A stretch of DNA of 49,977 bases from Thauera sp. (GCA_030603925.1 JAUVWV010000003.1:1-49977), one strand, 5' to 3'; positions 22,368-42,218 are shown, numbered from the stretch's first letter. Program-made: numbers and translations. The notes: a model not told the origin generated them from the letters alone.

Positions 22368-22588
22368 GGCGTCACCTGGCGTTGATGGTTTTCTGCTGGA
22401 GTGGCCTATTACACCATGGCGGACGCCCGCCCGGCAGGCCGGAATGGTGCGCACCGAAAGCGGGCATGCACGGCGGCGGTGCATGCGGCCGCGCCCAGGG
22501 GGTGCGAAATCCGCCCGAACTGCCACACTTGCTTCATGGCGCGGGAATTGCTCGATGCCCCGCAACCCTTTCCGCAAAGGACACTTCC

Positions 22589-25500
22589 ATGTCGATCCAT
22601 GTGGCCCTGCATCACCTCACCCGCTACCGCTACGACCGCCCGATCGGGCTCGGCCCGCAGATCGTCCGCCTGCGTCCGGCGCCGCACAGCCGCACGCGCA
22701 TCCTGTCCTACTCGCTGAAGGTGCTGCCGGCCAAGCATTTCATCAACTGGCAGCAGGACCCGCAGTCCAACTACCTCGCCCGCCTGGTGTTCCCGGAGCG
22801 GACCACGCATTTCGACATCGAGGTGGACCTGGTCGCCGAGATGGCGGTGATCAACCCCTTCGACTTCTTCCTCGAGCCGCATGCCGAGCACTTTCCCTTC
22901 GAGTACGAGGCCTGGCAGCGCGAGGAACTCGCGCCCTACTTCAAGACCCTGCCGCTGACCCCGAAGTTCAAGGCCTATCTCGACGCGGTACCGCGCGACA
23001 AGAAGCAGAGCGTGAACTTCCTGGTGGACCTGAACCGCGAGCTCTACGAACACATCCGCTACCTGATCCGCCTGGAGCCCGGCGTGCAGACGCCGGAGGA
23101 AACCCTCGACAAGCAGTCCGGCTCCTGCCGCGACTCGGCCTGGCTGCTGGTACAACTGGCACGCCACCTCGGACTGGCGGCACGCTTCGTCTCCGGCTAC
23201 CTGATCCAGCTCACCCCCGACGTCAAGTCGCTCGACGGCCCGTCCGGTCCCGAGGCCGATTTCACCGACCTGCACGCCTGGTGCGAGGTGTATCTGCCGG
23301 GCGCCGGCTGGATCGGCCTGGACCCCACCTCGGGGCTGTTCGCCGGCGAGGGCCACATCCCGCTGTCGTGCACGCCCGAACCCGGCTCGGCGGCGCCGGT
23401 GAGCGGCGCACTGGACGAGTGCGAGGTCGAGTTCGAACACCACATGGCAGTCACCCGCATCTGGGAGGCGCCGCGCGTCACCAAGCCGTACAGCGAGGCG
23501 CAGTGGCTGGAGATCGAGTCCCTGGGTCACGCCATCGACGCCGAACTGCATGCCGCCGACGTGCGCCTGACCCAGGGTGGCGAGCCCACCTTCGTCTCGG
23601 TGGACGACCCGGACGGCGCGGAGTGGAACACCGCGGCGCTCGGCCCCGACAAGAAGCGCCTGTCCACCGAACTGTTCCACCGCCTGCGGCAGAAGTACGC
23701 GCCGCAAGGCCTGGTGCATTTCGGCCAGGGCAAGTGGTATCCGGGCGAGCAACTGCGGCGGTGGTCGCTGAACTGCTACTGGCGGCGGGATGGCGAGCCG
23801 ATCTGGGAGGATGCCCTGCTGATCGCCGACGAGCACACCAAAGGCGGCGCCGACGAGAAGCTCGCCGGACGCTTCCTGCACGCGCTCGCCGAACGCCTGG
23901 CACTCGATCCGCAGCACATTTTCCCGGCATATGAGGATGCCTTCTACTACCTGTGGCGCGAACGCCGCCTGCCGGTCAACGTCGACCCGTTCGATGCCCG
24001 CCTCGACGACCCGCTGGAGCGTGCCCGCCTGGCGCAGGTGTTCAGCCGCGGGCTGGACCGGGTCACCGGCCACGTGCTGCCGATCACGCGCGATCCGGCC
24101 GGTGGCTGGCAGAGCGGCAAGTGGTTCCTGCGCAGCGAGCGCTGCTACCTGATACCGGGCGACTCCGCGCTGGGTTACCGCCTGCCGCTCGACGCCCTGC
24201 CCTGGGTGGCGGAAAGCGACTACCCCTGGGTGCACCAGCCCGACCCCTTCGACCACTATCCGCCCCTCGCGCCGCATGCCGCGCTGCGCCGCCAGTACGG
24301 CCCCGCCGAAGCGGGACGCGGCGGCTTCCACAACGGCACTGCCACGACCCGCGCGCCTGGCACCGCGGCAAGCGCGGCGGCCGATGCGCGCCTGCGCACG
24401 CCGGCCAGACACGAATCGGCCGCCTGGATCACCCGCACCGCGCTGTGCGCCGAAGCGCGCGAAGGCACGCTGTACCTGTTCATGCCGCCGCTCGCCCGGC
24501 TCGACGACTACCTCGAACTGGTCGCCACGATCGAAGCGGTGGCAGCCGAGCTCGGCCAGACCGTACTGCTGGAAGGCTACGAGCCGCCGCGCGACCCGCG
24601 CCTGGCCCATTTCCGCATCACCCCGGATCCCGGTGTGGTGGAGGTGAACATCCACCCGGCGTCGAACTGGGACGAACTGGTCGAGCAGACCACCCACCTC
24701 TACGAAGCGGCTCACCTGTCCCGCCTGAGCAGCGAGAAGTTCATGCTCGACGGCCGCCACACCGGCACCGGCGGCGGCAACCACTTCGTGCTGGGCGGCG
24801 CCACGCCGGCCGATTCGCCCTTCCTGCGCCGCCCCGACCTGCTGAAAAGCCTGATCGCCTACTGGCACAACCACCCCTCGCTGTCGTATCTGTTCTCCGG
24901 CATGTTCATCGGCCCCACCTCGCAGGCCCCACGCATCGACGAGGCGCGCAACGACTCGGTGTACGAGATCGAGCTGGCCTTCCGCGAGATGGCGCGCCTG
25001 TGCACGCCGGGCGCCGAAGGCTGCCCGCCGTGGATGGTGGACCGCCTGCTGCGCAACCTGCTGATCGACGTCACCGGCAACACCCACCGCGCCGAGTTCT
25101 GCATCGACAAGCTGTACTCGCCCGACGGCCCGGCCGGGCGGCTCGGCCTGCTGGAGATGCGCGCCTTCGAGATGCCGCCGCACGCGCGCATGAGCCTCAC
25201 CCAGCAACTGCTGCTGCGCGCCCTGGTGGCGCGCTTCTGGAAGACACCCTACGAACCGCCCCGGCTGGTGCGCTGGGGCACCGAACTGCACGACCGCTAC
25301 CTGCTGCCGCATTTCATCTGGCAGGACTTCTGCGACGTCATCGACGAGTTGCAGGTGGACGGCTACCCGCTGCGCGCCGAATGGTTCACGCCGCACCAGG
25401 AGTTCCGTTTCCCGAAGTACGGCGACTTCGCGGTCAAGGGCATGAGCCTGGAACTGCGCGCCGCGCTCGAACCCTGGCATGTGATGGGCGAGGAAGGCGC

Positions 25501-25948
25501 GGGCGGCGGCACGGTGCGCTCTGTGGACTCCTCGGTGGAGCGCCTGCAGGTGAAACTCAGCGGCGCCCCACCCTCCCGCTACCGGGTGAGCTGCAACGGC
25601 GAGACGGTACCGCTGGTGTCCACCGGCACGGTGGGCGAATTCGTCGGCGGAGTACGCTACCGCGCCTGGCAGCCGCCCTCCTGCCTGCATCCGAGCATCG
25701 GCGTGGACAGCCCGCTGGTGTTCGACATCGTGGACACCTGGAACGAGCGCAGCCTGGGCGGATGCCAGTACCACGTGGCACATCCGGGCGGGCGCAATTT
25801 CGACACCTTCCCGGTCAACGCCTTCGAGGCGGAAAGCCGGCGCCTGGCGCGTTTCTTCCGCATGGGACACACGCCCGGACGGCTGCGCTGCGGGGAAGCC
25901 CGCATCAACCCGGAATTTCCGTTCACGCTAGACTTGCGCCAGTCCTGA
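22589..25948 (+). CDS. transglutaminase-DUF2126 fusion, predicted amidoligase
   Basis: The 1119-residue protein has an N-terminal transglutaminase N domain ([20 protein letters not shown]), then a transglutaminase-like core with an apparent triad Cys180 ([11 protein letters not shown]), His229 (DLHAWCEVY) and Asp245 (LDPTSG). From about residue 310 runs the DUF2126 region, with [27 protein letters not shown]-like sequence, [13 protein letters not shown] and [13 protein letters not shown]2126 has been predicted to be an amidoligase of the glutamine-synthetase-like fold. AAAGGA stands about seven bases before ATG 22589. No signal peptide is seen, so it should act in the cytoplasm. It opens a three-gene cluster with ATP-grasp and a second transglutaminase. 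The substrate is unknown. Confidence 0.88.
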
Positions 25949-26002
25949 CCCGCCCGCCGCTCCCCGGAGCGGCATTACTTTTGGCCGATACCCCACCCAC
26001 CC

Positions 26003-28489
26003 ATGCCATCCGGACTCATCGAAAGCTACCCCCACGCCGTCGACCGCTACGACGAGATGCTCGCCGCGCCCGGCCAGCCGCGCCCGCACTGGCAGGCCTT
26101 CGCCGAGCGCCTGAGCGGCTTTCCGGAGGAGGCCCTGCTGCACCGCGCGGATTTCGTGCGCGGCGCGATCGAGGCCGACGGCGTGACCTACAACGTCTAT
26201 GCCGATCCCAAGGGCACCAAGCGCCCCTGGGAGCTGGACATGCTGCCCTTGATCGTCGGCGCCGCCGAATGGCAGACCCTGGGCGCCGCAGTGGCGCAGC
26301 GCGGCAGGCTGCTCAACGCCATCCTTGCCGACCTCTACGGTCCGCGCCACCTGCTGACCGAAGGCTTGCTGCCGCCGGCACTGGTGTTCGGCCAGCACGG
26401 CTACAAATGGCCCTGCCTGGGCGTGCAGCCGCCAGCCGGGATCTGGCTGCACAGCTATGCGGTGGACCTGGCGCGCGCGCCCGACGGCAAGTGGTGGGCG
26501 ATTGCCGACCGCACCCAGGGGCCCTCCGGTGCAGGCTACGCGCTGCAGAACCGCATCATCGTCTCGCGCGCCTTCCCGGACGCCTTCCGCGAGTTGCACG
26601 TGCAGCCGCTGGCGAGCTTCTTCCGCGCCATCCAGGACAGCCTCGCCCGCCTGGCACCCACCGAGGGCGAAGCGCCGCTGGCCGTGCTGCTCACCCCCGG
26701 CCCCTACAACGAAACCTATTTCGAACACGCCTTCCTCGCGCGCTACCTCGGCTTTCCGCTGGTCGAAGGACAGGACCTCACGGTGCGCGACGACACCGTG
26801 TACCTCAAGACCCTGCGCGGCCTGCGCCGGGTGCATGCGATCCTGCGCCGGCTGGACGACGATTTCTGCGACCCGCTGGAGCTGCGCGCCGACTCCGCGC
26901 TGGGCATCCCCGGACTGATGGGGGCGATCCGCGCCGGACGCGTGTTGATGGCCAACCAGCTCGGCAGCGGCGTGCTCGAGTCGGCCGCGCTGCTCGGCTT
27001 CCTGCCGCCGATCTGCGAGCGCCTGCTGGGCGAAGCGCTGCTGATGCCCTCGGTGGCCACCTGGTGGTGCGGCGAGGAACCGGCGCTGGAATACGTGCTG
27101 GAACACCTCGACGAACTGGTGATCAAGCCGGCCTTCCCCTCGATGCGCATGGAAGCGGTGTTCGGCCATGAGCTGAAGGGCGACTCGCGCCGCCGCATGA
27201 TCGAGCGCATCGTCGCCCAGCCGCACGCCTACGTCGGCCAGGAATGGGTGCGCCTGTCGCAGGCCCCGGTCTGGAACCGCAAGCTGATGCCGCGTTCGGT
27301 GGGCATGCGGGTGTTCGCCGCGGCCACCCCGGACGGCTACGCGGTGATGCCCGGCGCGCTCGGCCGGGTGGCGCCGCGCGCCGGCATGGAGGTGATCTCC
27401 ATGCAGCGCGGCGGCCTCTCCAAGGACACCTGGGTGCGGGCGGACGCACCGGTGGTGCGCACCAGCCTGCTCAAGCGCCGCCTGGGGGTGATCGACCTGG
27501 TGTGCGGCGGCGCCGACATCCCCTCGCGCGTCGGCGAGAACCTGTTCTGGATGGGACGCTACGCCGAACGCTGCGAGGCCAGCGCGCGCCTGCTGCGCGC
27601 CGCGCTGGTGCGCGTCTCCAGTTCAGACCCGGACACCGAGCTGCGCCTCTCGGGCCTGCTCGCCGCGGCACGGCGCGTCGGCGTGCTGCCGCCGCTCGCC
27701 GAGGAAAGCGGCAGCACGCCGCCCGCCCTCGAAGAGGAACTGCTCGCCGCACTGACCGATGTCGACCAGCCCGGTTCGCTCGCCGGCAAGCTGCGCGCGC
27801 TGGGGTTTTCCGCCGGCCACGTGAAGGAACGCCTGTCCTCGGACAACTGGCACGCCCTCAACCACCTGGAGCAACTGCTGGCGCGCCCGATCGCCACGGT
27901 CGACCAGGCGCTCTCCGCGCTCGACCAGGTGATGCTGTCCTGCATCTCGCTGGCCGGCTTCGCCATGGACGACATGACGCGCGACGAGGGCTGGCGCTTC
28001 CTCATCCTCGGGCGGCGCGTCGAGCGCCTGTACGGACTGGCCAGCCTGCTCTCGGTACCGCTCGAACCCGACGTGCGCGAGCGCGAACGCATGTTCGAGT
28101 GGCTGCTCGAAGCGGCCAACTCCATCGTCACCTATCGCGCACGCTACCGCCGCGTACCGGAGCTCCTGCCCCTGGTTCACCTGCTGGTGTTCGACACCAC
28201 CAACCCGCACTCGGTAGCGTTCCAGGTCGACGCCCTGCAGCGTTACATGGGGCGCACCGCACGCGAACTGGGCCATCCCTACCCCTCGCTGATGATCGAT
28301 CCGCTGGCACGCCGCCTGGCGGACTTCGACCTCACCCGCTTCGAGGCCGAGGACTGCGAGCTGGCGCTCGGCACCCTGCGCACCCTGCTCGCCGAAGCCG
28401 AGGACGTCGCCGGCAACGTTTCCGAGGAAGTGCATCGCCGCTTCTTCATCCACACCGTGCGCCCCATGCACCTGCGGAGCGTGGCATGA
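26003..28489 (+). CDS. circularly permuted ATP-grasp fused to Alpha-E domain
   Basis: The 828-residue protein joins two usually separate proteins. Residues about 1-500 are a circularly permuted ATP-grasp: ADGVTYNVYADPKG, LPLIVGAAEWQTL, LNAILADLYGPR, VLLTPGPYNETYFEHAFLAR, IKPAFPSMRMEAVFG and YVGQEWVRLSQAP. Residues from about 515 form an Alpha-E domain, opening IPSRVGENLFWMGRYAERCE and ending RRFFIHTVRPMHL. ATP-grasp enzymes form amide bonds through acyl phosphates, and this subtype is regularly found with transglutaminases and DUF2126 proteins. The fusion supports direct cooperation of the two domains. It follows the DUF2126 gene by 54 bases, and its stop overlaps the next start in an ATGA. 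Confidence 0.9.
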   Translation: MPSGLIESYPHAVDRYDEMLAAPGQPRPHWQAFAERLSGFPEEALLHRADFVRGAIEADGVTYNVYADPKGTKRPWELDMLPLIVGAAEWQTLGAAVAQRGRLLNAILADLYGPRHLLTEGLLPPALVFGQHGYKWPCLGVQPPAGIWLHSYAVDLARAPDGKWWAIADRTQGPSGAGYALQNRIIVSRAFPDAFRELHVQPLASFFRAIQDSLARLAPTEGEAPLAVLLTPGPYNETYFEHAFLARYLGFPLVEGQDLTVRDDTVYLKTLRGLRRVHAILRRLDDDFCDPLELRADSALGIPGLMGAIRAGRVLMANQLGSGVLESAALLGFLPPICERLLGEALLMPSVATWWCGEEPALEYVLEHLDELVIKPAFPSMRMEAVFGHELKGDSRRRMIERIVAQPHAYVGQEWVRLSQAPVWNRKLMPRSVGMRVFAAATPDGYAVMPGALGRVAPRAGMEVISMQRGGLSKDTWVRADAPVVRTSLLKRRLGVIDLVCGGADIPSRVGENLFWMGRYAERCEASARLLRAALVRVSSSDPDTELRLSGLLAAARRVGVLPPLAEESGSTPPALEEELLAALTDVDQPGSLAGKLRALGFSAGHVKERLSSDNWHALNHLEQLLARPIATVDQALSALDQVMLSCISLAGFAMDDMTRDEGWRFLILGRRVERLYGLASLLSVPLEPDVRERERMFEWLLEAANSIVTYRARYRRVPELLPLVHLLVFDTTNPHSVAFQVDALQRYMGRTARELGHPYPSLMIDPLARRLADFDLTRFEAEDCELALGTLRTLLAEAEDVAGNVSEEVHRRFFIHTVRPMHLRSVA

Positions 28490-29448
28490 ACATGCTGCCG
28501 AAGACCCCGGTGCGCTACCACATCCGCCACGACACGCGTTACCGCTACGACCAGCCGGTGGGCGAATCGCGCCAGCTGCTGCGCCTGACCCCGCGCGAGC
28601 TGCCGCAGCAGACCCTGCGCCAGCATCGCCTGGACATCGATCCGGAACCCGCGCGCCGCCAGCGCTTCACCGATGGCCTGGGCAACCTGGTCGAAACCCT
28701 GCACTTCGAGCGCGACCACGACGCCCTGCTGATCCGCGCCGAAAGCTGGGTCGAATTGCTGCCGCGCGAGCTTCCCGCGCTGGCCGATTCGCCGCCCTGG
28801 GAGACGGTGCGCGATGCGCTCGAATACCGCGCCGGCCGCACCCTGGACGCCGCGCAACTGGACGCCTGCGGCTACCTGTTCGAATCGCGCCATGTGCGGG
28901 TGAAGCGCGAGTTCGCCGACTACGCCGCAGCGGACTTCCCGCCGCAGGCCCCCCTGCTGGTCGGGGTGCACCGCCTGATGCGGCGCATCTTCGACGAATT
29001 CACCTTCGACCCGGAAGCCACCGACATCTCCACCCCGGTCACCGAGGTGTTCGAGAAGCGGCGCGGCGTCTGCCAGGACTTTGCCCACTTCATGCTCTCC
29101 TGCCTGCGCTCGCTGGGTCTGCCGGCGCGCTATGTGAGCGGCTACCTCCTCACCCGCCCGCCGCCCGGCAAGCCACGCCTGATCGGCGCAGACGCGACCC
29201 ACGCCTGGGTGTCGGTGTATTGCCCGGAGCATGGCTGGGTGGATTTCGACCCCACCAACGCACTGCTGCCCGACCTCGAACACATCACCATCGGCTGGGG
29301 GCACGACTTCGCCGACGTCTCGCCGCTGCGCGGGGTAATCCTCGGCGGCGGCGAGCACGAACCGGAGATCGCCGTCACCGTGGTGCCGGAGGACGAGTTC
29401 GAGACGCTCTACGGCGCGGCGGAACTTCCCGGCCTGCGGCTGGCCTGA
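28486..29448 (+). CDS. transglutaminase-like protein, cluster member
   Basis: The 320-residue product has the transglutaminase N-terminal beta region (IRHDTRYRYDQPVGESRQLL) and a core with an apparent triad Cys196 (GVCQDFAHFML), His239 (DATHAWVSVYC) and Asp255 (WVDFDPTN). Bacterial members of this group are thought to act as cysteine peptidases or amide-transferring enzymes. Here it probably cleaves or edits what the ATP-grasp/DUF2126 pair makes. It starts in the ATGA that ends the ATP-grasp gene. An alternative ATG two codons downstream cannot be ruled out. Confidence 0.9.
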   Translation: MNMLPKTPVRYHIRHDTRYRYDQPVGESRQLLRLTPRELPQQTLRQHRLDIDPEPARRQRFTDGLGNLVETLHFERDHDALLIRAESWVELLPRELPALADSPPWETVRDALEYRAGRTLDAAQLDACGYLFESRHVRVKREFADYAAADFPPQAPLLVGVHRLMRRIFDEFTFDPEATDISTPVTEVFEKRRGVCQDFAHFMLSCLRSLGLPARYVSGYLLTRPPPGKPRLIGADATHAWVSVYCPEHGWVDFDPTNALLPDLEHITIGWGHDFADVSPLRGVILGGGEHEPEIAVTVVPEDEFETLYGAAELPGLRLA

Positions 29449-33916: not shown

Positions 33917-36622
33917 TCAACTGACGAAACGGCACTTTGACGCAGGGCTGCGGGTATCCATGTTGCGCCCGCGGTTCAGGTGGTCGTCGATTTCCGCCGC
34001 GCAGCCGAGCAGGCGCGCATAAAGGAACACGGTGAATGCGGCCGACTCCAGCGCCGCCTCGCCGATCTCCCCCGCCCGCCAGGGTTGCCAGGTCAGTTTG
34101 AGCAGCAGCGCGGCAATCACCGCGTCGAGAGTCACGCAGTACACCGTGCGCGACACCCCGGCATCACGCAGCGCCTGCACCAGTGCGCGGTAGAACTCGT
34201 GGAACACGTTGCTCTCGCCGCGCGCGGCCATCAGTTCGCGGATGAAGGCCTCGCGCGGATCGACGTTCACCGGGCGGTCCTTGAACACCGGGTGGTTCAC
34301 GCCGGGGATCTTGCGCAGATCGGCGCTGCCCGCAGCCTTGGCGCTGGCCTTGTACTGCGCATAGTCCTCGGCGCAGCGCACTGCGAGCGCCGCCACATCG
34401 ATGCCATGCGCGGGGTCGGCGGGATCGATGAGCGACGTATCGCGGAACTGCGCCATGAGGAACTGCACCCCTTCGAAACCGTTGCCGCCGTGCGCGTAGC
34501 CGGTGTGCGTGAGGAAGCCGAGCAGCGCCTTGTTGAGTTGCACGCGCTGCGGCGCCTCCGGGCCGTCGGCCGATACCGCGCCCTTGGCGCCCTGCGCGGA
34601 GATGGTGCCGGGACCGTTGGTCAGCAGGATGCCCACCAGGGTCTGGAAGGCGAACAGATCGGCCGCGGACGGGGCACGGTCGAGCAATGCACGGCAGGCG
34701 ACATCGGTGATAGAGGCCTCGCCGAGCAGGCTTGCCGTGGGGATCTCGCAGAAGGTGTCGGGGCCATGGCGCGCAGCATCGACCGAGGCGCCGATCGCCG
34801 TGCCGATCAGGCGCATCCAGGCCGGAAGGCGCTCCGCAGTGAGGCGCGAGACCCGTTTCCTTAGCAGCGGCCCCCAGGCCAGCGTGGTGGTGATCGCCGC
34901 CAGCACCGCATCGGCCGTGGGCGGTGCCCCCAGTCCGCGCAGCCAGCGCACGAACACCGAGCGCGCCTCGCGTGCGTCGAGCCCGGCCAGCATCGCCTCG
35001 GCCTGCGGGTCCGGGCCGTCGGCCAGCACCAGGCGGCGCAGCGCTGCATCGTCAGCCAGCGCGCCGAGGTCGAAGTCGTCATCCAGCGCATCGCGCAGAC
35101 CGGCCGCATGGAAGCGTTCGATCAGCAGCGCGGCGATCTCGCCCGCGCCCGCCGTGCGGCGCGGCCCGACGATGGCGAGCGCCGCGCCGAGTACGCTGTT
35201 GGGCGCATTGCCCGCATCGCGGGCGGCCTGGGCGGCCGCCAGTGCCGGGTCGCCGTGGAGGTTCAAGCAGGCGCAAAGCGCCACATTGACCAGTTTGCGG
35301 TCGTTCTCGCCGCCCGCTTCGCGCAGTAGCGCCAGGCTCACGTTGGCCTCCAGCGGCAGGCGCGCTGCCTCCAGTACCGAGACGCCATGCAGGCTGGAGA
35401 CCTGAGTCTGCGGGTCCATCTGCGAGGCACCGGAAGCATCCTTCAGCCCCTCGCGCGGGAACAGCGCGCCGATCTGGCGGGCCAGCTGGCCGATCTGCAT
35501 ACGGTAGGGTTCGATTGCGTCGACCACCGGCAGGTCGAGCGCGGCCGGCAGCTCGACACCGGCGTTGCCGCCGAACCAGGCCTTGAGCTCCATCGTGCCT
35601 TCCGGGGCGAAATCGGGCAGCGTGGCATTGGCGCGCATGACCTCGGTGAGCGCCGCCGGGATGTGGGCGATGTTGGTCACCACCGCGCCCTTGGCCGAGA
35701 ACACCGGATTCTCCGGCGTGTAGATCGCGTCCACGCCGAACTTGTCCATGAACCAGCGTTCCTTGGCCGCGGCGTCGTCCTCGCCGCCGGCCATCGCGCC
35801 GGCGTGACCCACGGCCCGGGTCAGCTTGGCCTTCCAGCGCCCCACCACGCAGGCCACCACCGGCTTGGTGAACTCGGCGTCGCGCTCGTAGTAGCCACCC
35901 GGCTCGCAGTACAGCACCGCGGCCTTGCTGCGCGCGTCGTTGGCGAGCGCAAAGGCGAACTCGGGCGCGGCGTAGTGGATGTACACGTCCTTGCCGCTGG
36001 AGACCAGCGTGGTGGTGCCCCAGCCGGCCATGCGCAGGTACTGCGCGATGGTGGTGGTGAAGCCGCCCGAGTTGGAGAGGATGGCGATCGAGCCGCGCTT
36101 CAGGGTGTCGCTCGGATTGTCGCCGCCCAGCGCACCGCCGATGCGCACTTCGTTCCACGCGTCGGCCACCCCCAGGCAGTTGGCGCCGAAGATGTCGATG
36201 CCGTGCTGCTGGCCCATCGCGCGGATTTCGCGTGCATCGTGCACCGCGATCTTCTCGGTGATGATGAAGACCTTCTTCAGCTCGGGATTGACCCGGATCA
36301 GCTCGGCCACACCGTCGCGTGCGGCCGCAGGCGGCAGATACACCACGCCGCAATTGAAGCGGTGACCCGCATCGAGCCCCTCGCGTACGCTGTTGTAGAC
36401 CGGAATGTCGCCTGCGGGGGTGGCGAGCACCTGCCCGCCCCGCCCCGGCGAGGTGCCGAACACCACGTTGCCGCCCGACCACGCGTGGCCGACCGGGGTA
36501 ACCTCGGAGGACTCGCCGCCGAGGATGTTGAGCACGCACACCCGGTCGTGGCGGGTGGCGATCTGCGAAAGCGAGCTGATGCCCACGAAGTACTTGAAAT
36601 CACCTGCTCCAGGCTGGTACAT
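33917..36622 (-). CDS. ATP-citrate-lyase-like alpha subunit (SucD-like plus citrate-synthase-like), enlarged
   Basis: The 901-residue protein begins with a succinyl-CoA-synthetase-alpha-like part (about 1-330): VYNSVREGLDAGHRFNCGVV, FIITEKIAVHD, SIAILSNSGGF and VGHAGAMAGG with the expected phospho-His at residue 273. The C-terminal third is citrate-synthase-like, with YAHGGNGFEGVQFLMAQF and IPGVNHPVFKDRP (His777). This is the AclA layout, which cleaves citrate to acetyl-CoA and oxaloacetate with its ATP-grasp partner. Known AclA is about 610 residues, so about 290 extra residues sit in the middle. They include a second CS-like stretch (LNLHGDPALAAAQAARDAG, then LIERF), possibly a degenerate duplicate. 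AGGAG lies seven bases before the start. The partner gene is 30 bases upstream. The exact substrate, citrate or a related acid, is inferred. Confidence 0.8.
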   Translation of the reverse strand: MYQPGAGDFKYFVGISSLSQIATRHDRVCVLNILGGESSEVTPVGHAWSGGNVVFGTSPGRGGQVLATPAGDIPVYNSVREGLDAGHRFNCGVVYLPPAAARDGVAELIRVNPELKKVFIITEKIAVHDAREIRAMGQQHGIDIFGANCLGVADAWNEVRIGGALGGDNPSDTLKRGSIAILSNSGGFTTTIAQYLRMAGWGTTTLVSSGKDVYIHYAAPEFAFALANDARSKAAVLYCEPGGYYERDAEFTKPVVACVVGRWKAKLTRAVGHAGAMAGGEDDAAAKERWFMDKFGVDAIYTPENPVFSAKGAVVTNIAHIPAALTEVMRANATLPDFAPEGTMELKAWFGGNAGVELPAALDLPVVDAIEPYRMQIGQLARQIGALFPREGLKDASGASQMDPQTQVSSLHGVSVLEAARLPLEANVSLALLREAGGENDRKLVNVALCACLNLHGDPALAAAQAARDAGNAPNSVLGAALAIVGPRRTAGAGEIAALLIERFHAAGLRDALDDDFDLGALADDAALRRLVLADGPDPQAEAMLAGLDAREARSVFVRWLRGLGAPPTADAVLAAITTTLAWGPLLRKRVSRLTAERLPAWMRLIGTAIGASVDAARHGPDTFCEIPTASLLGEASITDVACRALLDRAPSAADLFAFQTLVGILLTNGPGTISAQGAKGAVSADGPEAPQRVQLNKALLGFLTHTGYAHGGNGFEGVQFLMAQFRDTSLIDPADPAHGIDVAALAVRCAEDYAQYKASAKAAGSADLRKIPGVNHPVFKDRPVNVDPREAFIRELMAARGESNVFHEFYRALVQALRDAGVSRTVYCVTLDAVIAALLLKLTWQPWRAGEIGEAALESAAFTVFLYARLLGCAAEIDDHLNRGRNMDTRSPASKCRFVS

Positions 36623-36652
36623 GGCTGTCTCCTCGATTGTCGCCGGGCGGGC

Positions 36653-37942
36653 TCAGGCGGCTGCCGTTGCCTCGGTAATGCCCAGCCGGCGCGCCACCGC
36701 GGCGCGTCCGCCGGCCTTCATCCATTCGTTCATCTCGCGGGCGTAATCGACCACCTCGCTCATCGCCGAGTCGAAGCCGAACAGGCGGTAGGGCAGGCCG
36801 AGCGCCTCGCAGGTGTCGCGCAGCACGCCCATGCCGCGCACCAGGTTGGGCCCGCCGCGCCCGGCGACCACCGCCAGCGGCGTCGGGCCATAGGTGCCGA
36901 AGTGCTCGCGCAGCGCGTCGGCCATGGCGCGGAAGGTCTCGAAGATGTCGGTGTTGTTGGACTTGCCGCCGATGATGAACAGCACGTTGGCCTGGCGCAG
37001 CCAGTGCTTGAAGCAGATCGCGGCGACCGACTTCATCTTCTCGTAGGGCGGATTGCCGCCGAAGTCCGAGGAGATGATGGCGTCGTCGCCCAGCATCTCG
37101 GTGACCAGCGAGTTGGCGCCGCCGCCGAAGGTGGGCGCGAGGATGGTGCCGTGCTCGTTGATCACGTACACGTCGCTCTGCCCCTGGTGGGTGCGCAGCT
37201 GGTTGATCTCCTGCTCGAAGTCGGAATAGTCGGCGGCAAACAGGTGTGCCGGCAGGTTCAGGCGATGCCAGCGCGGGTCGTCGCGGTCGAAGCCGCACTT
37301 GAAGTCGCAGGCCACCGGAGTGAGCCGTCCGCGGCGATCCGCGCGCATGCGGATCGGGTTGAGTTCGAGCGTCGTCATGCCGAAGTCGTGGAACAGCTCC
37401 CACAGGCGCGGCAGGTGCTGCACCAGCGGGGAGATGATCTCCTTCGGGGCGCCGATGTCGGCCAGCGCGTTGGCCACCACGAAGGCCTTCAGGCCGGTCA
37501 GCGGATCGAAGGGGATCTGCGCCACCTGGGTCTTGTCGAGCTCCTCGATGTCCATGCCGCCGTGGTGGGTGAGGGTCATGGTCGGCGCACGGAAGCGCGT
37601 CGAGTCGGTGATCGAGAAATACACCTCGTGCTCGGCGGGCACGGCCCCCTCGAAGGTCACCCCGTTGGCCTTGGCCACCTGGTTGCCGTGGCGGTGCTCG
37701 ACGAAGTACAGGCGTTCCTTCTCGGCGAGTGCGGATTTCAGGTCCTTCGCGCGGCCGATCAGGCCCGCTTTGCCCTTCTTGCCTACACCCCCCTTGAACA
37801 CGGGTTTGACGAACACCGAACCGTGGCGCTCGATGAGGTCCTTGATCGCCTCTTCGCTGGCATCCGGGCCGAGCACCTCCGCAGCGGGGAAGTCGGCGAA
37901 GCGCAGCAGTGGCGATCCGTGAAGCATGCCGGTGACCTGCAT
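36653..37942 (-). CDS. ATP-citrate-lyase-like beta subunit (ATP-grasp plus citrate-binding domain)
   Basis: The 429-residue protein has a SucC-like ATP-grasp (VFVKPVFKGGVGKKGKAGLI, FVEHRHGNQVAK, TLELNPIRM) to about residue 240. A citrate-binding domain like that of eukaryotic ATP-citrate lyase follows: TFGGGANSLVTEML, LFIIGGKSNNTDIFETFRAM and VVAGRGGPNLVRGMGVLRD, where the Asn, Thr and Arg that hold citrate appear to be kept. Together with the downstream alpha subunit it matches the AclB-AclA order of Chlorobium-type enzymes. ATG 37942 is used, with AGGAG upstream; the track start adds 50 residues of leader. The leader GAGGAGACAGCCAT is the same as that of the alpha gene. Confidence 0.85.
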   Translation of the reverse strand: MQVTGMLHGSPLLRFADFPAAEVLGPDASEEAIKDLIERHGSVFVKPVFKGGVGKKGKAGLIGRAKDLKSALAEKERLYFVEHRHGNQVAKANGVTFEGAVPAEHEVYFSITDSTRFRAPTMTLTHHGGMDIEELDKTQVAQIPFDPLTGLKAFVVANALADIGAPKEIISPLVQHLPRLWELFHDFGMTTLELNPIRMRADRRGRLTPVACDFKCGFDRDDPRWHRLNLPAHLFAADYSDFEQEINQLRTHQGQSDVYVINEHGTILAPTFGGGANSLVTEMLGDDAIISSDFGGNPPYEKMKSVAAICFKHWLRQANVLFIIGGKSNNTDIFETFRAMADALREHFGTYGPTPLAVVAGRGGPNLVRGMGVLRDTCEALGLPYRLFGFDSAMSEVVDYAREMNEWMKAGGRAAVARRLGITEATAAA

Positions 37943-38040: not shown

Positions 38041-38085
38041 GCGAAAAAGAACTCCGGACAGTCTGCTCCCCCAGCTGTCCGGAGT
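38041..38085 (-). terminator. Rho-independent terminator of the porin gene
   Basis: On the minus strand ACTCCGGACAG and CTGTCCGGAGT form an 11-bp stem (38075-38085 with 38051-38061) with a 13-base loop, followed by TTCTTTTTC. It separates the porin from the citrate-lyase-like genes, which therefore need their own promoter. Confidence 0.8.
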
Positions 38086-38138
38086 CGGTCAAAGGCAGCC
38101 GGTCGCCCGGCGCCCTGGAAACGGTCGTCGCTGCCGGC

Positions 38139-39176
38139 TCAGAACCTGTGCCGCATGCCCGCCATCACGACACGGACGGTGTCACCGGCCGCAGGCGTGA
38201 AGTTGAAACCGTAGTCGGCATTGGAAGCGTTGTTGATCTGGGAGTATCCGGCGTACAGCGTCGTGCGCTTGGAAAGGTCGTGCATGTAGTACAGGGACGC
38301 GCCCTTTGCGTCTTCCGCACCCGCCTCGCCGCTTTCGTCACGCACCCCGTAGGACACTGCGAGCGTACCCGCCGCACTGACCGGAATCGCGGCGCCGAGC
38401 GAGTAGCTGCGCGCCTTGCCGGAGCCCTGCGACCCGCTTTCCTTGTCACGGGAATACAGGCCGTACAGGGTGGCCACCCCAAGATCGTAGCTGCCGCCGA
38501 TACCGTGGGTGGTCGCGCGTCCGCCGGTGCTGTTGCTGATGAAGCTCTGCGTGGTTACCGCAGCCGCGAACGGGCCGTTCTTGTACATGCCGGTGAGGCC
38601 ATAGCCCCGCCCCTGCCGGCGCACGTCGCTGTCATCGCTGGCGATCTCCGCGCCGTTCCAGTAACCGACATCGAACGAGAGGCCGGCCATCGTGGGGGAG
38701 CGGTACTTGATCATGTTGTCGAAGCGCACCTGGTAGCCGCGCGTGACCGAACCGCTCTTGCGATGCAGCAGGCCCGCAGTCCGATCGGCACCGCCGGTCG
38801 CCTCGAAGGGATCCAGTGCGACGAACGCAGGCGAGTACTGCCGCCCCGCCGTGACCCGGCCCCACGAGCCCTCCAGCCCAAGGAAGGACTGGCGCTGAAA
38901 GCCGCTCAGGCCACCGACATCCGGGCTGATGCCGGCCTCGAGGGTATAGATCGCCTTCAGGCCATTGCCCAGGTCCTCGCTGCCGCGAAACCCGAGGCGC
39001 GAACCGTTCAGTTCGCTCGTATCCATCGCGCTGCGCCGCATGTCGCCGGCCCACTCGCGGGCCATGTTGATATCGATGAGGCCGTAGATCGTGACGTTCG
39101 ACTGTGCGCTGGCCGCCAGCGGCGCCGCGCCGGCCAACGCCAGCAGCGTTGCCCGGACGATGCTCGTCTTTTTCAT
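38139..39176 (-). CDS. general outer membrane porin (betaproteobacterial type)
   Basis: The 345-residue product has a signal peptide (MKKTSIVRATLLALAGAAP, cleaved after AASA), then QSNVTIYGLIDINMA, the usual first strand of trimeric 16-stranded porins in this group. It continues with SRLGFRGSEDLGNGLKAIYTLE, LGLEGSWGRVTAGRQYSPA and FDNMIKYRSP, and ends in phenylalanine (GMRHRF) as outer membrane proteins do. GGAGG lies seven bases before the ATG. It has its own terminator downstream and a palindrome in its leader. The solute preference cannot be told; its place before the citrate-lyase-like genes may be chance. Confidence 0.95.
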   Translation of the reverse strand: MKKTSIVRATLLALAGAAPLAASAQSNVTIYGLIDINMAREWAGDMRRSAMDTSELNGSRLGFRGSEDLGNGLKAIYTLEAGISPDVGGLSGFQRQSFLGLEGSWGRVTAGRQYSPAFVALDPFEATGGADRTAGLLHRKSGSVTRGYQVRFDNMIKYRSPTMAGLSFDVGYWNGAEIASDDSDVRRQGRGYGLTGMYKNGPFAAAVTTQSFISNSTGGRATTHGIGGSYDLGVATLYGLYSRDKESGSQGSGKARSYSLGAAIPVSAAGTLAVSYGVRDESGEAGAEDAKGASLYYMHDLSKRTTLYAGYSQINNASNADYGFNFTPAAGDTVRVVMAGMRHRF

Positions 39177-39198
39177 CTGTCTTCCTCCGAAAGTGGTT

Positions 39199-40940: not shown

Positions 40941-42218
40941 CTATCCCAGCGTGTCGTTCAGGATGTTGAAAATCCACGCCACTGCCATGAAACCCTCCTC
41001 GCTGCTCGGCGCCGCCGACAGGCCGCCGGCGCCCGGCACCCCGACCATGGTGCGCTTGCCGGCATCGTAGTGATACACCCCGGCGACGTGGATCGCCTCC
41101 TTCTCGTTCACGAAGCTGTAGCAGGTGTTGGCCACGATGGGCTCGTCGCTCACCGGGCGGCCCGCCAGCAGGGCGGCGATCGCCGCGGCGCACACCTTGG
41201 CCTGCTGGTTGGCCATGTGGGCCGACTTGGGCAGACCGGGCGCCGAGGCCACCGAGTCGCCGATGATGTGCACGTAGGGCGCGACCCTGGATTCGTAGGT
41301 CAGGAAGTCCACCTCGCACCAGCGCTGATCGACGTTCGCCAGGCCGCTCTTGCGCGCGATGATGCCGGCGCGCTGCGGCGGGATGACGTTCCACAGATCG
41401 GCCTTGATGCCGGCCTGCACGTCGAAGCGCAGTTCGCCGCCGGCCGCGTCCATGCGCTCGAAACCGGCATTCGGCACGTACTCGATCATGCTCTTGTAGC
41501 GCGTGCGGAAGGCGTCGAGGAACAGATCCTTCTTCGCCAGCACGTCCGGATTGGCGTCGAATACCAGCACCTTGGCGCGCGGGTTGCTGCGCCGCAGGGC
41601 ACTGGCCACCAGGCAGGCGCGCTCGTAGGGCCCCGGCGGGCAGCGGAACGGCGCCTGCGGGATATGCATGGCAAACACGCCGCCTTCGGGCAGCGCACCC
41701 AGACGGCGGCGCAGGTCATGGGTCTGCTGCCCGGCCTTCCAGGCATGCAGGACCTTTTCCTGCGCAGCCGCGCCCTCCAGCCCGGGCAGGCTGTCGTAGG
41801 CGAAGTCGATGCCCGGCGCGAGGACCAGGCGGTCGTAGCTCATTGCACCGCCGCGCGCGAGGGCGATCTGCCGCGCGCCGGCATTGACCGAGGTCACCGT
41901 GTCGCGCACCACGCGCACACCATGGCGGCTGGCCAGGGTGTCGTGCGAACGCGTCAGGTCGCGCGTGCTCATCGTGCCGCCGATCACCCGGTTGCTCATC
42001 GGGCAGGCGACGAATTCCGCCGCGGCCTCCACCAGCACCACCTCGGCGCCCGGCGCCCAGCGCTTCAGATAACGCGCGCAGGTGGCGCCGGCAAAGCCGC
42101 CGCCCACCACCACCAGCCGCGCACCGCTGCCGTTCTGCGCCAGCACCGAGGCCGGCAGCGCCCCCGCAAGCGCGCCGGCACCAAGCCGGCGCAGGAATTC
42201 CCTGCGTTCGATCGCCAT
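40941..42218 (-). CDS. fccB: flavocytochrome c sulfide dehydrogenase, flavoprotein subunit (FccB/SoxF type)
   Basis: The 425-residue product has a Tat signal (ERREFLRRLGAGALAGALP, cleaved near VLA), so it is exported folded with FAD. The FAD site is RLVVVGGGFAGATCARYL, close to the new N-terminus. The redox-active cysteines of the family appear to be present (FVACPMSNRV and VANTCYSF). RLVLAPGIDFAYD and YVHIIGDSVA are also typical. The enzyme oxidises sulfide to sulfur or polysulfide in the periplasm and passes electrons to its cytochrome partner, whose gene ends 12 bases upstream. Related flavoproteins could use other reduced sulfur species; the family is clear, the substrate inferred. Confidence 0.9.
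   Translation of the reverse strand: MAIERREFLRRLGAGALAGALPASVLAQNGSGARLVVVGGGFAGATCARYLKRWAPGAEVVLVEAAAEFVACPMSNRVIGGTMSTRDLTRSHDTLASRHGVRVVRDTVTSVNAGARQIALARGGAMSYDRLVLAPGIDFAYDSLPGLEGAAAQEKVLHAWKAGQQTHDLRRRLGALPEGGVFAMHIPQAPFRCPPGPYERACLVASALRRSNPRAKVLVFDANPDVLAKKDLFLDAFRTRYKSMIEYVPNAGFERMDAAGGELRFDVQAGIKADLWNVIPPQRAGIIARKSGLANVDQRWCEVDFLTYESRVAPYVHIIGDSVASAPGLPKSAHMANQQAKVCAAAIAALLAGRPVSDEPIVANTCYSFVNEKEAIHVAGVYHYDAGKRTMVGVPGAGGLSAAPSSEEGFMAVAWIFNILNDTLG

Follow-up and report, generated by a model that had tools for sequence, protein, structure and literature searches.

A stretch of 49,977 nucleotides from a metagenome-assembled genome (MAG) of Thauera sp. (GCA_030603925.1 JAUVWV010000003.1:1-49977; the window, in what follows) carries two adjoining genes that resemble those for the beta and alpha subunits of ATP citrate lyase, the alpha-like product being some 290 residues longer than that of the familiar bacterial enzyme. 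What do the additional residues encode, is the pair a new kind of enzyme, and what might it do in a betaproteobacterium? An earlier note, made from the DNA alone, had proposed a distinct ATP citrate lyase whose extra residues hold a second, degenerate citrate-synthase-like stretch. The answer that we favour overall, with good though not full confidence, is a type II ATP citrate lyase in which a live and a dead lyase-like copy stand in tandem, used for the catabolic cleavage of imported citrate.

The beta subunit and the synthetase half of alpha

The assignment of the pair to ATP-citrate-lyase-like enzymes proved sound. The beta product matches Pfam Citrate_bind (PF16114; 4.6e-15, above the cut-off) and ATP-grasp_2 (1.5e-13), contains both motifs on which the assignment had drawn, GGKSNNTD and GRGGPN, and finds its best match in the PDB in the large subunit of citryl-coenzyme A (CoA) synthetase (6hxq_B, 4.4e-30), followed by ATP citrate lyase (6hxi, 1.9e-22). 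Residues 26–304 of alpha match the CoA_binding, Succ_CoA_lig and SucD families (Pfam/NCBIfam), and the N-terminal part aligns with the small subunit of citryl-CoA synthetase (6hxq_A, 3.9e-36) across the GHAGA motif, which includes His273; this histidine and Glu123 are invariant in 62 of 62 homologous sequences. For both subunits, the nearest solved structure is thus the Hydrogenobacter citryl-CoA synthetase CcsAB, and ATP citrate lyases and succinyl-CoA synthetases come after it. Succinyl-CoA synthetase and malate-CoA ligase were themselves considered as identities and rejected, the curated NCBIfam models for SucC, SucD and malate-CoA ligase scoring 44–121 bits against cut-offs of 336–604.

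Tandem citrate-synthase-like copies in alpha

Beyond the synthetase half and a linker, alpha contains two copies with remote likeness to citrate synthase and citryl-CoA lyase. The C-terminal one (copy 2) bears the signature HGGNG (His711), NHPVFKDxPxNxDPRE (His777) and Asp833, and these three residues, together with Arg870, are invariant in all 62 sequences. Its motif order, HGG...NHPVFK..DPRE...D, parallels the HGG...GHRVYK..DPRA...D of citrate synthase (PF00285), with which it also shares a helical fold, but the copies in the window are much diverged, fused, duplicated and, in one case, apparently dead. The citrate-synthase-like end that the earlier note had seen is real, if remote: Pfam Citrate_synt has no match above cut-off in the window alpha itself and is reached only through homologues, 21 of 28 of whose C-terminal segments match it (E up to 0.1; best 1.4e-7). 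A PDB profile search with copy 2 (618–901) returned nothing significant and no citrate synthase, and hhalign of this copy against 16 real citrate synthases was weak, which counts against our overall reading.

The middle region (copy 1) aligns with copy 2 when hhalign profiles of the two are compared (Prob 97.7, E 2e-12, 197 co-linear columns), against Prob 0.7 or less for 30 column shuffles and below 1 for reversed and unrelated controls. Residues 400–632, modelled alone with AlphaFold2, reach a predicted local distance difference test (pLDDT) score of 92 and a predicted template modelling score of 0.89; a Foldseek search with the isolated middle copy places the Hydrogenobacter citryl-CoA lyase Ccl (6hxp) first, and all of the top 50 matches are citryl-CoA lyase, lyase modules of ATP citrate lyase, citrate synthase or methylcitrate synthase, at modest values (E 2e-3 to 0.7; template modelling score about 0.4–0.6). 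The full-length AlphaFold2 model (pLDDT 64; 27 similar sequences), which gave poor global scores in Foldseek, was used for the helical middle alone. A second, degenerate citrate-synthase-like stretch in the extra residues, of a predicted fold not unrelated to citrate synthase, is thereby borne out, although its limits, formerly put at residues 400–560, lie at about 396–617.

Neither position of copy 1 equivalent to His711 and His777 is a histidine, the equivalent aspartate is not conserved, and identity between clades is 42% in copy 1, 56% in copy 2 and 68% in the synthetase half. Because the equivalents of the catalytic positions are lost and conservation between clades is weaker, we regard the middle region, in all likelihood, as a catalytically dead second copy beside the live copy 2. 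The alternative, that it is an unrelated helical insertion which resembles citrate synthase through helical composition, strikes us as very improbable, though some results do pull in its direction: a PDB profile search with copy 1 returned nothing significant, and its hhalign match to the 16 citrate synthases was weak and insignificant; the modest Foldseek values lean the same way. What tells against an insertion is the distance of the shuffled and reversed controls from the true pair, the co-linearity of the alignment along its length, and the composition of the fold matches, every one of which is a member of the citrate synthase and lyase families named above.

In the mechanism that we propose, beta would bind ATP and citrate, phosphate would pass via alpha His273 to citrate, and CoA would displace the phosphate to give citryl-CoA, whose cleavage to acetyl-CoA and oxaloacetate would take place with the C-terminal copy (His711, His777 and Asp833). 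The dead middle copy would probably pair with the active copy or scaffold it, standing in for the second-subunit contact of type I enzymes. A study of human ATP citrate lyase (ACLY) weighs against part of this scheme, arguing for cleavage in the synthetase half and for an allosteric role of the citrate synthase domain (PMC10115795); on that view the catalytic step may proceed without copy 2. A lyase with a live and a dead copy in tandem would also offer a natural test in the debate over whether, throughout the ATP citrate lyases, the citrate-synthase-like module is catalytic or allosteric.

Type II membership and distribution

PMC3522073 and PMC6783814 trace the postulate of a 'type II ATP citrate lyase', an enzyme of Magnetococcus and tubeworm symbionts, to Hugler and Sievert 2011. 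The proteins of Magnetococcus marinus MC-1 (Mmc1_3638/3639; PMC6783814), of the Riftia, Tevnia and Escarpia symbionts and of Thioflavicoccus appear to share with the window pair full-length co-linear homology, an alpha subunit of ~900 residues, an adjacent beta gene, the tandem layout and corresponding primer-site peptides: VAKEEWF and NGFEAIA, specified by the primers acl2F1 and acl2R1 that were published for type II (PMC3522073), align with AAKERWF and NGFEGV in the window, with several mismatches at the DNA level. On the strength of this homology and of the primer-peptide alignment, the pair very probably belongs to the type already named and, as judged from sequence, would be an ATP-driven citrate cleavage enzyme. 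Nor is the size of alpha anomalous, since the layout of ~900 residues is common to all full-length homologues, of which there are about 60 (898–913 residues), with the beta gene adjoining in nearly all loci and the lyase-like copies fused within alpha in every case; in Hydrogenobacter, by contrast, Ccl is a separate protein.

Type I enzymes, represented by AclAB of Chlorobium (6hxj) and by human ACLY, share the ATP-grasp and citrate-binding beta, the SucD-like phosphohistidine part and a C-terminal citrate-synthase-like lyase module, but their alpha has ~610 residues and one such module, against 901 residues and two copies in the window. Identity with type I AclAB was rejected: the citrate-binding beta is present, whereas an alpha of ~600 residues with a single module is not. 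Thus the distinct type proposed in the earlier note is indeed separate from type I, but it is not new, having been postulated before with an alpha of ~900 residues as its normal form.

A genome scan yielded 34 homologues, mostly full-length and of 68–86% identity, in Aromatoleum, Thauera, Azoarcus, Variovorax, Ramlibacter, Rhizobacter, Rhodoplanes and others, with plasmid copies in Paraburkholderia, Caballeronia, Microvirga, Sinorhizobium, Aminobacter and Gemmobacter. A sample across the phylum added 38 genomes (~54–57% identity where measured), with matches spanning 900 profile positions; identity of the window alpha to Magnetococcia-like genomes is 54–57% along ~900 residues. Prevalence within the window's order is low (the window's MAG and 2 of 399 sampled). 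The enzyme is uncommon in betaproteobacteria but, with many genera and Burkholderiaceae megaplasmids carrying it, not unique. In the tree, the window falls in a beta- and alphaproteobacterial clade (support 1.0) apart from a group of Magnetococcia-like genomes and one betaproteobacterial genome (G028). In four plasmid records (L044, L045, L046 and L048) the RefSeq-derived name of alpha is 'CoA-binding protein' or 'hypothetical protein', and the enzyme is therefore hidden from annotation-based surveys. A literature search of papers outside subscription found no description of the tandem copies, no purified type II enzyme, and no earlier report that links tricarballylate, Tct transporters or Paraburkholderia to ATP citrate lyase.

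Gene neighbourhood and role

At 21 of the 43 loci sampled in the window clade, several of them short, genes for tricarboxylate uptake or sensing are close by, as against 0 of 21 Magnetococcia-like loci; those counted were TctA/TctB/TctC, the tricarballylate/proton symporter TcuC (NCBIfam 4.6e-229), TcuAB and TctE-type kinases. A YciA-like thioesterase is also found near the pair at some loci of the clade. Because such transport and sensing genes are often near and a normal citrate synthase is kept (16 of 16 relatives with the same enzyme), we propose a catabolic role in the window clade, the cleavage of imported citrate or a close tricarboxylate, which on this genomic evidence we rate about evenly for and against. 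A little more tentative is the broader picture of a widespread, horizontally mobile branch, labelled 'CoA-binding protein' where megaplasmids of Burkholderiaceae and rhizobia carry it, that would be catabolic in heterotrophs and contain a pseudo-dimer of live and dead citryl-CoA lyase copies. Import, rather than the reversal of citrate export raised earlier, is what the neighbours indicate. The window's MAG, too, encodes TctABC and a TctE-type kinase, on another contig, which speaks for the catabolic role. Several observations temper the proposal: Burkholderiales commonly have tricarboxylate transporters, and 21 of 43 is a raw count without a random-locus background; the window pair itself is adjoined by a porin alone, with no transporter adjacent; and the literature search found no biochemistry for the type II subfamily.

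A role in the reductive tricarboxylic acid (TCA) cycle, and hence in autotrophy, has been proposed for Magnetococcus and the tubeworm symbionts, and the earlier note had asked whether it applied here; in the window organism we consider it unlikely, and less likely than ATP-dependent cleavage of imported citrate. The window's MAG does encode a 2-oxoacid:acceptor oxidoreductase alpha subunit, but this enzyme also serves aromatic degradation in Thauera and Azoarcus, and members of the window clade are known for the most part as heterotrophs. A gene cluster for the reductive cycle (acl with kor, idh and acn) is absent from the window and from the sampled loci of its clade, where uptake genes are found instead, and the retention of citrate synthase by the relatives likewise speaks against such a role. 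Such a cluster was seen solely in G028, of the other clade, where the type II genes lie among genes for a 2-oxoglutarate:ferredoxin-oxidoreductase-like 2-oxoacid oxidoreductase, HdrA-like and iron-sulfur proteins, monomeric isocitrate dehydrogenase and aconitase B (L097, contig C1 2522300-2541900), an arrangement resembling the clusters for the reductive TCA cycle in tubeworm symbionts (PMC6315080). For CO2 fixation via this cycle, type II ATP citrate lyase serves as a marker; should heterotrophs indeed use the window branch to cleave tricarboxylates that they import, possession of the gene would by itself be no evidence of autotrophy.

Slightly less improbable, though still doubtful, is that the substrate is an analogue of citrate, such as 2-methylcitrate, citramalate, hydroxycitrate or a tricarballylate-derived acid. 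Tricarballylate genes (TcuA, TcuB and the TcuC family) adjoin some members, ATP-dependent cleavage of citrate looks wasteful because aconitase normally takes citrate directly, and the citrate-binding loop, SNNTD, resembles the ANNTR of citryl-CoA synthetase, unlike the ANFTN of the human enzyme. Yet the best matches of beta are to Citrate_bind and citryl-CoA synthetase, cis-aconitate, the product of TcuAB, joins the TCA cycle beside citrate anyway, and Magnetococcus, with an enzyme of the same family, has reported citrate cleavage activity (PMC6783814). We dropped, as scarcely credible, the idea that the enzyme runs toward citrate synthesis in place of a missing citrate synthase. It arose from the lack of a Citrate_synt (PF00285) match in the window's MAG, but that assembly is 86% complete, sucD is likewise cut or missing, and citrate synthase is present in 20 of 20 related genomes; because the 16 enzyme-bearing relatives all keep it, the gap is probably one of assembly. 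Imported citrate or a close tricarboxylate remains our preferred substrate for the window clade, which differs from the Magnetococcus and tubeworm-symbiont enzymes in its separate, supported position and in having uptake genes near about half of its loci, not genes of the reductive cycle.

At the locus itself, beta lies upstream of alpha across a gap of 30 bp, and a GAGGAGACAGCC ribosome-binding stretch, read in the sequence, precedes both starts. Because a terminator-like hairpin lies between the porin gene and beta, the arrangement suggests a separate transcription unit for beta and alpha. A porin occupies the equivalent place in seven other Rhodocyclaceae-type loci (55–63% identity) and might have a part in tricarboxylate entry.

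Table 1. Features of the ATP citrate lyase locus, in window coordinates
Feature	Position	Strand	Remarks
Alpha (AclA-like) gene	33917-36622	(-)	901 aa
Alpha residues 618-901, citrate synthase/citryl-CoA-lyase-like copy 2, proposed active	33920-34771	(-)	His711, His777, Asp833, Arg870
Alpha residues ~396-617, degenerate citrate synthase/citryl-CoA-lyase-like copy 1	34772-35437	(-)	hhalign, AlphaFold2, Foldseek
Alpha residues ~331-395, less conserved linker	35438-35632	(-)	~50% identity between clades; low pLDDT
Alpha residues 1-330, acyl-CoA synthetase (SucD-like) part	35633-36622	(-)	phospho-His273, Glu123
Beta (AclB-like) gene	36653-37942	(-)	429 aa; ATP-grasp and citrate-binding domain; 37942 is the beta start
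Terminator-like inverted repeat, ACTCCGGACAG...CTGTCCGGAGT then CTTTTT	38043-38086	(-)	between porin and beta; direct sequence reading
Gram-negative porin	38139-39197	(-)	upstream of the beta-alpha pair; Pfam Porin_4 9e-54

Elsewhere in the MAG, one weak match to the RuBisCO large subunit, with one stop codon, was seen at C141:6904-7644 (L124); it may reflect either a RuBisCO-like protein or a broken reading frame. Near the pair, the window also encodes a flavoprotein of flavocytochrome c sulfide dehydrogenase (40941-42218, (-)), which hints at sulfide oxidation in the organism. At 22382-29448 (+) lies a cluster of genes for a transglutaminase-like/DUF2126 amidoligase protein, a circularly permuted ATP-grasp and Alpha-E protein and a second transglutaminase-like protein, next after which comes a protein of the histone deacetylase family.

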